In this document: piece by piece, positions 38,868 to 40,842 of the stretch
Layout of the letters: every line of letters starts with the position of its first letter
Position numbering within the stretch: the first letter of the stretch is position 1
Assembly (NCBI RefSeq): GCF_003555505.1
Contig: NZ_CP032152.1
Location: 620,001 to 684,000 of the forward strand
DNA length: 64,000 nt
Origin: Thermosynechococcus sichuanensis E542
Lineage (GTDB): Bacteria; Cyanobacteriota; Cyanobacteriia; Thermosynechococcales; Thermosynechococcaceae
Direction: 5' to 3'
The notes under the pieces: generated by a model
The model's input: the letters and a program-made list of their open reading frames with translations, nothing else
Databases searched by the model: none
What the model was told of the DNA's origin: nothing
Position numbers and translations under genes: made by a program

Positions 38868-40265
38868 TTGACATTGGATATTTCCCGTTTGCGATCGCAA
38901 TGGCAACAAATTCACGGTGACGAAACCTCTGAAGCTGTTATTGAGCAGCACTTTGTCCGACCACTCCTGAGTGTGTTGGGCTTTGGCGATCGCGATCGTC
39001 TTTCTTCCTTTGATACCGGTGCAGGCATTGCCGATGTGGCAGCCCGGTTTCCTCGGGAGCATCAGCCTCCCTTTTGTCAAACTCCAGTTGACCCCGATTT
39101 AATTGTTGAGATTAAAACCCCTGCCCGTCGCTCCCGTAATACCCCCAGTCAAACCGTGGCCTTGAACCTTGAGAATGGGTCTGCCCACCATAGCCGCGCT
39201 CTGCAACAACTCCGCCAACTTCTCAGTGGTTGCCATTGCCAAGAAACCGCTTGGGGGCTGATCACGAATGCCCGCCACTTGCAACTTTTTCAACGCCATG
39301 GCCACTTGGTCTATCCAGTGACGCCCAACTATGAACTGACGGGCGATCGCCTTGAGGCCATTGTCGAAGACCTCAAAACCTGCTTGCGATCGCGCCCCCG
39401 TGCCACCACCCTCTGTCTCTATAACCACAAGGGAGGCGTGGGCAAAACCACCACTACGATTAACTTGGGCGCCACCCTTGCTGTGGCCGATGCCGCCGTC
39501 TTGCTTGTTGATTGCGACCCCCAAGGGGATCTCAGCCGCGCCCTTGAGCTAACCCCCACCAGTACAACCCTTGCGGCTTGCCTGCAAAACCCTGATGAGC
39601 CGATTACGGCTACGATTCGCCCCTTTGACCTGCGCATCCGCACCAGCAGCAGTATCAAGTCTGCCCATATCTTTGATGTCATTCCCGCTGCACCGCAACT
39701 GCAAAGCATCCTCATTCAGGCGATGCAAACTCAAAATCCACCCATTACCCGCCTGCGGGAACGCCTCGCCCCCTTGCGCGATCGCTACGACTACATCCTC
39801 ATTGACTGCCCCAGTGCTTGGCTCTTTTTAAGTAAGAGCGCCGTGTATGCCAGTGACGCCGTTTTGATTCCCACCCGCCACACCGATCTCTCCTCCCTCA
39901 ACAATGCCGCTCAGGTGATTCACCAATTTCTCTTCAATGAAATTCACACATTGCGCCGCGAAGGCGGGCCCCTTCCTTTGCCTATTTTCTTTAATGGTGC
40001 TCCCACAACCGACAAGGCGATGGCCGTTGCCCAAGCAGAAATTGAACGGATTCTCCAGAAGCTCCCCCATCTCACCCCCTACTTTTGGCCGCAGTATCAA
40101 GCCAATGACACAAGCGTATTCGCCATTCCTGAATATGCCATCATTTCCCGTGCCGCCTTTGCCCGTGTGCCTGCGGTCTTCAAAGATAAGCGCGTCTTGG
40201 GCTTCTATCAGACATTGGTGCAGACCTATCTTCGCCCCTTAGCTCCTGCCAATGACCTGACCTAA
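38868..40265 (+). CDS. ParA-type ATPase fused to an N-terminal PD-(D/E)XK nuclease-like domain
   Basis: A 465-residue two-domain protein. Residues 1-175 resemble the N-terminal nuclease domain of type I restriction R subunits: SEAVIEQHFVRPLL then a possible catalytic trio D56 (GIADVAAR), E81 and K83 (PDLIVEIKTPAR), and WGLITNARHLQLF at about 129-141. Residues 180-460 are a ParA/MinD-like ATPase with the deviant Walker A NHKGGVGKTTTT (K188, K193), VDCDPQGDLS and IDCPSAW. No ParB, parS-like site, methylase or specificity subunit is nearby. A small coiled-coil membrane gene follows after 93 bases. Start is TTG at 38868; GCTTGACATTGG lacks a clear ribosome site. Function is unknown; defence, DNA positioning or plasmid-derived partition are possible. 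Confidence 0.85.
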   Translation: MTLDISRLRSQWQQIHGDETSEAVIEQHFVRPLLSVLGFGDRDRLSSFDTGAGIADVAARFPREHQPPFCQTPVDPDLIVEIKTPARRSRNTPSQTVALNLENGSAHHSRALQQLRQLLSGCHCQETAWGLITNARHLQLFQRHGHLVYPVTPNYELTGDRLEAIVEDLKTCLRSRPRATTLCLYNHKGGVGKTTTTINLGATLAVADAAVLLVDCDPQGDLSRALELTPTSTTLAACLQNPDEPITATIRPFDLRIRTSSSIKSAHIFDVIPAAPQLQSILIQAMQTQNPPITRLRERLAPLRDRYDYILIDCPSAWLFLSKSAVYASDAVLIPTRHTDLSSLNNAAQVIHQFLFNEIHTLRREGGPLPLPIFFNGAPTTDKAMAVAQAEIERILQKLPHLTPYFWPQYQANDTSVFAIPEYAIISRAAFARVPAVFKDKRVLGFYQTLVQTYLRPLAPANDLT

Positions 40266-40358
40266 CCGACAACCTTCCTAACAGGATTTATAAAAAATCT
40301 GAAAACGGAAATTGCTGGCTCCCCCTAAAATGAAATTACCCCTCCCTGAGCAGCCGTC

Positions 40359-40664
40359 ATGACTGAGTCTGCCACCCAATCCCAACTGACTGAAGTTCTG
40401 GAAACGGTGAAGGCAATCCAGTCGCAGTTAACAGAACTCACCCTTGAAGTGAAGGTGGGGCAAGCAGAAATCCGTGAAAAGTTCAACACCATGGAGGCCA
40501 AAATTGAGGCTGTGCGCCTAGAAGTGCAGAACAATCGCGAACAGTTAGTAGAGCTAGGGAAACGCCAAGGTTCAACGGATAATCGCCTTTGGGCACTGCT
40601 AGTGGCACTGTTTTTGATGGTGGCAGGACTTTTGGCCAAGATTACACTGTTTGACAAAGTTTAG
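40359..40664 (+). CDS. Coiled-coil protein with C-terminal membrane anchor
   Basis: A 101-residue protein. Residues 5-75 form a continuous heptad-rich coiled coil (VLETVKAIQSQLTELTLEVK, then EIREKFNTMEAKIEAV), followed by a hydrophobic span at about 79-96 (WALLVALFLMVAGLLAKI) and a short tail (TLFDKV). It would be a tail-anchored membrane protein. Similar small proteins occur in cyanobacteria, often near mobile or defence genes; no function is known to me. It is 93 bases downstream of the nuclease-ParA gene on the same strand and could be its membrane partner, which is inference. A well-placed GAGGAG after it leads into a broken ORF. Confidence 0.68.
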   Translation: MTESATQSQLTEVLETVKAIQSQLTELTLEVKVGQAEIREKFNTMEAKIEAVRLEVQNNREQLVELGKRQGSTDNRLWALLVALFLMVAGLLAKITLFDKV

Positions 40665-40675
40665 AGGAGAAACCC

Positions 40676-40753
40676 ATGAGTGAACCTGTCATACCAGCGC
40701 TTGGTAACATTTTTGAACCTCAAGGGCAATTCACGGCATCTGTATTCTGCTGA
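40676..40753 (+). pseudogene. Broken ORF start with strong ribosome site
   Basis: A 25-codon frame (MSEPVIPALGNIFEPQGQF, then TASVFC and TGA) with AGAGGAGA seven bases before the ATG. The strong ribosome site and good spacing suggest the beginning of a real gene whose body is gone. Its end coincides with the start of the transposase relic at about 40744, so an insertion and later deletion may have cut it. The parent gene is not recognised. Confidence 0.4.
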
Positions 40754-40842
40754 GTCTTGACAGTGGGGTAGAGCGGTTTGCGCAGGCGGTGCGTTGCGAT
40801 TGGGGGATTGAAAACCAAGTGGACTGGGTGCTGGATGGGGCT
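40744..40842 (+). mobile_element. Relic of an ISAs1-type transposase
   Basis: About 33 codons in one frame read SLDSGVERFAQAV, RCDWGIENQVDWVLDGAL. This matches the RxHWGIENxxHWVLD signature near the C-terminus of ISAs1-family (DDE) transposases. The frame then departs from the family and no N-terminal catalytic part, inverted repeats or target duplication are visible. The key His before WGIEN is Asp here (CDWGIEN). It is therefore a decayed fragment between the coiled-coil gene and cysA. Identification is from the motif alone. Confidence 0.65.

Follow-up and report, generated by a model that had tools for sequence, protein, structure and literature searches.

We describe a gene in which a PD-(D/E)XK nuclease domain and a ParA ATPase domain are joined in a single protein chain. 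The gene occupies 38868..40265 on the plus strand of the window, by which we mean the whole 64,000-nucleotide stretch analysed here from Thermosynechococcus sichuanensis E542 (contig NZ_CP032152.1, positions 620,001 to 684,000). Sequence comparisons and structural models show that, in its ancestral setting, the gene for this single-chain nuclease-ParA was followed immediately by a second gene, whose ParB_N-like product mostly carries a Rho_N/SAP-type tail; the hot-spring lineage of the window has lost this second gene. ParA ATPases are positioning and partition motors, and the position of the fusion beside a ParB-like gene in other cyanobacteria points to a so far undescribed form of the ParA/ParB module that is armed with a nuclease. 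Our preferred reading, to which we give a probability of about 0.45, is that the module cuts DNA in the service of replicon conflict or of maintaining the element that carries it, and that Thermosynechococcus has a solo derivative of it. A motor combined with a conserved nuclease and a ParB-like adaptor without the CTP (cytidine triphosphate) box would link restriction to the segregation of DNA. Below, the features of the fusion gene and of the ORF after it are given in window coordinates and all lie on the plus strand; G and L numbers denote genomes and loci, and G000 is the source genome (2.65 Mb in one contig, C1).

The N-terminal domain (residues 1–178, 38868..39401) is, according to the structural models, a PD-(D/E)XK nuclease fold of the HsdR_N or type IIG kind, and it is predicted to cleave. 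The AlphaFold2 model of residues 1–182, built from 26 sequences, had a mean predicted local distance difference test (pLDDT) score of 91.2, in comparison with 87.1 for the whole protein, and adopted the PD-(D/E)XK fold. A Foldseek search with the domain gave no match at E ≤ 0.001, the best being the type IIG enzyme BpuSI (E 3.7e-3, probability 0.99). Pairwise structural comparison with VIA-align placed BpuSI first (Z 11.8, root-mean-square deviation [rmsd] 3.3, 148 residues aligned), followed by DrdV (Z 10.2, rmsd 4.3, 137 aligned), the Vibrio HsdR 3h1t (Z 9.3, rmsd 3.7, 119 aligned) and the EcoR124I HsdR (Z 7.8, rmsd 3.4, 130 aligned). Unrelated-looking mitoribosomal rows reached Z 8.0–8.6, a noise level that only BpuSI, DrdV and 3h1t exceed. 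The Pfam models HSDR_N and HSDR_N_2 did not match the window protein or its N-terminal domain; HSDR_N_2 was found at E ≤ 0.1 in 15 of 24 relatives (best 5.1e-7), and in the genome search the loci of G032 and G048, which are of the same type as the window gene (type A), scored above its cut-off.

The catalytic residues are highly conserved. We counted residues in 59 rows covering type A, the related type B and divergent loci, with the window protein included twice (as L164 and as itself). The Asp of the motif, D56 (codon 39033..39035), was present in 57 rows, E81 in 59 and K83 in 56 (E81-x-K83, codons 39108..39116), E22 in 56, and Q114, at the QxxxY-type position (codon 39207..39209), in 54. 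D56 falls in an alignment gap in L159, K83 is replaced by Glu in L175 and L176, and L181 has Thr for K83 and Gly for D56. The Tyr of QxxxY is Leu in the Thermosynechococcus rows and is kept in G012, the partnerless relative outside the genus discussed below; it is also missing from seven other rows. Directly after the ExK residues, the window protein has an insertion of 12 residues (residues 86–97, 39123..39158), which in alignment A3 is complete only in the four rows of that partnerless clade; three rows with a partner gene (L073, L099 and L101) have six of the 12 residues. A sequence-only reading of this DNA had proposed a nuclease-like head with D56, E81 and K83, of the kind found in type I R subunits, followed by ParA. 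The residues are where it placed them, the domain order was confirmed and the trio is conserved among homologues; the nature of the fold was supported by the model, by the Z scores for BpuSI, DrdV and 3h1t and by the HSDR_N_2 matches of relatives.

The remainder of the protein (residues 181–465, 39408..40265) is a complete ParA/Soj-type Walker ATPase. Pfam AAA_31 matched it with an E value of 2.5e-30, above the cut-off, and Foldseek ranked the ParA structure 8ray first (E 7.4e-17), followed by Soj proteins, with McdA structures among the matches. The deviant Walker A motif KGGVGKT (residues 188–194, 39429..39449) contains the signature lysine K188 and K193, and these, D217 and the Walker B residue D313 (codon 39804..39806) are invariant in the 24 rows of A3. 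The ATPase thus shares its deviant Walker A, signature lysine and Walker B Asp with the ParA and Soj proteins of ParABS systems (8ray, Helicobacter pylori Soj and Thermus thermophilus Soj), as well as a ParB_N-like gene on the 3′ side in relatives; it differs from them in the added nuclease domain, in a partner that lacks the GERR box and mostly has a Rho_N/SAP tail, in having no clear parS-like repeats nearby and, in the window, in the loss of the partner. The head resembles the N-terminal domains of HsdR (HSDR_N and HSDR_N_2; EcoR124I, Vibrio 3h1t) and of type IIG enzymes (BpuSI, DrdV) in its PD-(D/E)XK fold with D...ExK...Q, whereas the chain continues into a ParA ATPase and not into a superfamily 2 (SF2) helicase or a methylase, and no modification or specificity partner was found among the neighbours scanned. 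We rejected a remnant of a type I restriction-modification system, as the protein has ParA in place of the SF2 helicase motor and no hsdM or hsdS was seen among those neighbours. We also rejected an identity with McdA, the carboxysome-positioning protein and likewise a cyanobacterial ParA-like ATPase, because the fusion has K188; McdA has no nuclease domain and, to our knowledge, lacks the signature lysine.

The gene is not a chance fusion, as orthologues are found in all 11 Thermosynechococcus genomes analysed and the ratio of nonsynonymous to synonymous substitution rates (dN/dS) in comparisons with nine congeners is 0.067–0.121 for the whole gene. The corresponding ratios were 0.090–0.174 for the N-terminal domain and 0.049–0.094 for the ATPase, and are unreliable for G010 and G003, where dS is 1.2–1.8. 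Amino acid identities are 77–97% in the unbroken copies, the copy of G009 being split across two contigs. On these comparisons, the fusion gene is genuine and under purifying selection. The open reading frame (ORF) gives 465 amino acids from the TTG at 38868; the TTG at 38874 is the likelier start, giving 463 amino acids, since the orthologous frames of G005, G002 and G003 have no in-frame start upstream of this second TTG (TTG GAT ATT).

The partner gene becomes evident in the relatives. In the flanks of 20 relatives, a single protein cluster of 223–271 amino acids was found directly 3′ of the fusion in 19, and the two genes overlapped by one base in 8 of 13 plus-strand cases. Pfam searches of the 19 partners at E ≤ 0.5 matched ParB_N in 17 (best 2.1e-4), Rho_N in 15 (best 1.5e-10) and SAP in 12, the Rho_N/SAP-type domain being C-terminal in most. 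The ParB_N similarity of an example partner, 17.6 bits, is below the cut-off of 26.3, and the CTP-binding GERR box of ParB (G[EAH][RHK]R) was found in none of the 19. A profile made from these proteins had matches at all 32 hand-picked type-A loci outside the clade of the window protein, consisting of the 19 themselves, a phage-like contig and 12 further loci, two of them on Nostoc plasmids. As a check for selection bias, we took the 30 best loci returned by the family search and found the partner at 19/19 loci outside the clade and 0/11 inside it. When all distinct type-A loci outside the clade with an examinable 3′ side were considered, the partner was present in 43/43; a broken copy (L027 in G025), whose 3′ side is beyond the available sequence, was left out. 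The earlier statement that no ParB gene is near therefore stands for the window and fails for the family.

ParB-CTPase-fold families have been surveyed (PMC12704722), and in comparison with the families in the passages of that survey available to us, the type-A partner likewise combines a ParB_N-like domain with a second domain in one protein and is encoded beside a parA. Given the score of the example partner against the ParB_N cut-off, such proteins could have been missed there. Our literature searches, which included passages of PMC12704722, PMC10853773 and PMC9178275, found no description of a nuclease-ParA fusion.

We counted 9-mers in the 450 bases upstream and the 400 bases downstream at 32 loci and found no convincing parS-like repeat array. 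A few 9-mers occur in four to six copies near pairs and are not common to different loci, shuffled comparisons having been made for the upstream side only. The strongest repeat is in L136, where the nine-base word TAGGGTTGA is found six times within 400 bases downstream of the partner; it could represent a site for binding or simply a tandem repeat that arose by chance.

The window protein belongs to a partnerless clade consisting of Thermosynechococcus and G012. The partner profile matched none of its 11 loci, representing ten genomes of the genus and G012; the split locus of G009, of which the first stretch ends inside the gene and shows no partner, was not counted. Searching whole genomes with the profile at E ≤ 0.01 gave nothing in 10 of the 11 genus genomes and one weak match (7.8e-4) in G010, which is the partner of its type-B paralogue. 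In a tree of 37 rows, made without type B, the divergent rows, G001, G002, G004, L175, L176 and L180, the partnerless rows formed one clade (support 100/100) joined to the partner-bearing L125 (99/95), and a quick tree of 57 rows recovered the same clade. As the partnerless rows are one clade nested within partner-bearing ones, the partner gene was, judging from the trees, apparently lost once. The clade has kept the catalytic residues despite the loss. G003, a genome in one contig, has neither a type-B system at E ≤ 1e-50 nor a ParB_N match above the cut-off, its sole hit being a frame of 96 amino acids.

The source genome has a second fusion outside the window, the type-B paralogue L002 (C1:418347-419303); its product has PDF...IIEVK and a ParA domain, and an ORF of 254 amino acids comes next. 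This ORF has no ParB_N match in Pfam and is 31% identical over 118 amino acids (E 2e-15) to the type-B partner of G010, which, unlike the example type-A partner, exceeds the ParB_N cut-off with 27.4 bits and narrowly misses the cut-off for SAP. Type B was found in 79 of 388 cyanobacterial genomes, and its N-terminal domain aligns with that of type A with an hhalign probability of 98.5 (E 2.3e-15). By eye, we judged a ParB-like ORF to be present on the 3′ side in 10 of 11 further type-B loci, and the type-A partner profile matched the partner in 5 of 10 type-B loci scanned (E 2e-7 to 3e-4). Five divergent loci (L155–L157, L160 and L161) match both profiles. By these similarities, the type-B paralogue of the source genome has a two-gene layout related to that of type A. 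Two of the divergent loci, L160 and L161, are nuclease-ParA and ParB-like pairs in two genomes of family f2 (G306 and G122), whose chromosomes are small (1.7–1.8 Mb).

The spread of the family is patchy. With profile A1 at E ≤ 1e-50, we found matches in 101 of 388 cyanobacterial genomes, among them 95 of the 334 good genomes, and in 56 of 160 genera. A scan of genome contigs with patterns of the window protein covered the N-terminal domain only in Thermosynechococcus and cannot show absence in other phyla. Among matching plasmid records, 5 of 936 covered at least 80% of the window protein and 4 of 590 at least 80% of L090, all of them listed as cyanobacterial; two further Pseudanabaena plasmid records covered 71–72% of the query. 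None of 26 phage records reached the 80% coverage, and there was one full-length match among the best 80 of 168 viral contigs. Two plasmids of Nostoc sp. UHCC 0870 have the pair: unnamed4 (NZ_CP091917.1, 55 kb), together with two ParA-ParB pairs, ParM/StbA and a CyRepA1 gene, and unnamed9, together with ParM/StbA and another ParA-like gene. The pair is also found on a 58-kb IMG/VR contig (IMGVR_UViG_3300009787_000008; L184 in G388), which, by its matches to phage portal (E 5e-87), terminase, integrase and endolysin proteins, looks temperate-phage-like. On this contig the pair is followed by an ORF of 230 amino acids and then by a gene reading like an XRE/IrrE-type regulator. The copies on plasmids and on the phage-like contig speak for an origin in mobile elements, and a defence, chromosome-guard or plasmid-remnant role, as proposed by the sequence-only reading, is possible.

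The mechanism that we infer is as follows. Binding of ATP would let the protein form a ParA/Soj-like sandwich dimer on DNA, and dimerisation would bring two nuclease heads together. The state of the ATP site and the ParB-like adaptor would then set the place and time of DNA cutting, the adaptor gripping nucleic acid with its SAP/Rho_N-type tail and, as it lacks the GERR box, acting on the ATPase without a CTP clamp. The role would be in replicon conflict or in maintenance of the carrier element, by cutting a rival plasmid, a phage or mis-segregated DNA, and not in ordinary segregation alone; the solo protein of Thermosynechococcus would be a domesticated, vertically kept derivative. We are more tentative about the fuller version of this idea, in which a widespread undescribed class, found in cyanobacteria, some plasmids and a phage, couples the ParA dimer cycle with a CTP-independent ParB-like adaptor to license a nuclease against competing or mis-segregated DNA, with Thermosynechococcus retaining a solo ATP-gated nuclease. 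The two-gene system is concrete and open to direct test, and the partnerless orthologues and the members without catalytic residues provide natural controls.

Several observations weigh against the replicon-conflict reading. The best Foldseek E value for the nuclease domain is only 3.7e-3. The three members without K83 (L181, L175 and L176) all have the partner gene, and cutting must therefore be dispensable in some lineages. In the source genome, a ParB_N match above the cut-off lies close to an ordinary ParA-like gene (C1:1840676-1841879), and a ParB could therefore act in trans there. The presence in 11 of 11 genomes of one genus looks more like housekeeping, the pairs show no clear excess of defence genes nearby (126 versus 105 PADLOC families, below), and the redundancy with other partition genes on the plasmids does not exclude partition, as plasmids may carry several systems. 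The module could indeed be a ParABS-like partition system of plasmids, prophages and chromosomes, with the nuclease head serving as an accessory (in copy-number control or in resolving dimers and tangles) or merely gripping DNA. The complete ATPase with ParA and Soj structures as its nearest matches, the ParB_N-like gene on the 3′ side, the copies on plasmids and a phage-like contig and the retention of the partner in the members without K83 all agree with this; we nevertheless consider it somewhat unlikely, since both Nostoc plasmids carry other partition genes, no clear parS-like array was found in the flanks of the 32 loci, all 19 partners lack the GERR box and G003 keeps the fusion without the partner, a type-B system or an above-cut-off ParB_N match. 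A comparable degree of doubt applies to a separate housekeeping role of the solo Thermosynechococcus protein, in DNA repair or chromosome organisation and no longer that of the ancestral pair, an explanation that concerns the solo protein and overlaps with the readings of the pair. The genus-wide presence under strong purifying selection without the partner would fit such a role, as would two features beside the active site, the longer loop and the change of QxxxY to QxxxL; on the other hand, gene order is only partly conserved, with the copies of G003 and G010 elsewhere, and the Tyr is replaced in some partner-bearing rows too.

A narrow anti-phage defence, in which recognition of invading DNA by the ParB-like adaptor would permit the nuclease to act, seems to us unlikely. 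In its favour, the nuclease is of the restriction-enzyme type, the spread of the gene across the 388 genomes is patchy, and type II methylase, type II and type IV restriction enzymes and Cas1 are among the matches listed for ORFs near the pairs. A search of PADLOC 2.0.0 with the fusion matched only models of the candidate system PDC-M28B (best E 6.2e-6), and this partial match to the ATPase spans only residues 160–217. Against it, when 133 ORFs near 19 pairs were compared with an equal number from 19 control places, chosen by hand in 15 of the 19 genomes that have these pairs, the numbers of PADLOC families matched at E ≤ 1e-10, a coarse count in which many models describe one protein, were similar, 126 near the pairs and 105 at the controls; no Pfam family was found in more than three of the 133 neighbour ORFs. 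Furthermore, the phage-like contig itself carries the pair, and the whole genus keeps a solo copy. Far less probable still is the membrane-positioning device of the sequence-only reading, formed by the nuclease-ParA and a tail-anchored coiled-coil protein. The ORF for such a protein, 101 amino acids with strongly hydrophobic residues 80–98 near the C terminus (40359..40664), does follow the fusion on the same strand at a distance of 93 bases, the gene is also intact beside the fusion in G005 and G001, and G010 has a relative about 2.4 kb upstream of it. This much of the earlier claim holds; the conserved pairing does not. The adjoining copies have stops in G004 and G008, none is listed beside the fusion in G002, G003, G006 and G007, and the protein belongs to a dispersed multicopy family with 12 match rows in the source genome and 24 in G010; most members lie at a distance from the fusion, frequently as tandem arrays. 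We therefore rejected it as the partner and do not count it as a part of the system.

The gene itself has ordinary neighbours. According to Pfam, those upstream are an S9 peptidase, a lumazine-binding protein (riboflavin synthase type), EF-Ts and ribosomal protein S2, and those downstream an ABC-transporter ATPase, a HAD hydrolase, PspA/IM30 and an enoyl reductase; the Pfam scan of these eight flanking window genes found no ParB, methylase or specificity gene, in agreement with the earlier remark. No further component of the system was seen at 40664-40842. The genes for EF-Ts and S2 precede the fusion in eight genomes of the genus, in three of which (G005, G001 and G007) the downstream side is rearranged, and in G003 and G010 the fusion is located elsewhere. 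Tandem arrays of the coiled-coil family are found at several places, e.g., G000:C1:2599480-2600739. In G001, the coiled-coil array by the fusion marks the site of a chromosome rearrangement, and the sequence past this array corresponds to G000:C1:2028808-2036465 at 89% identity.

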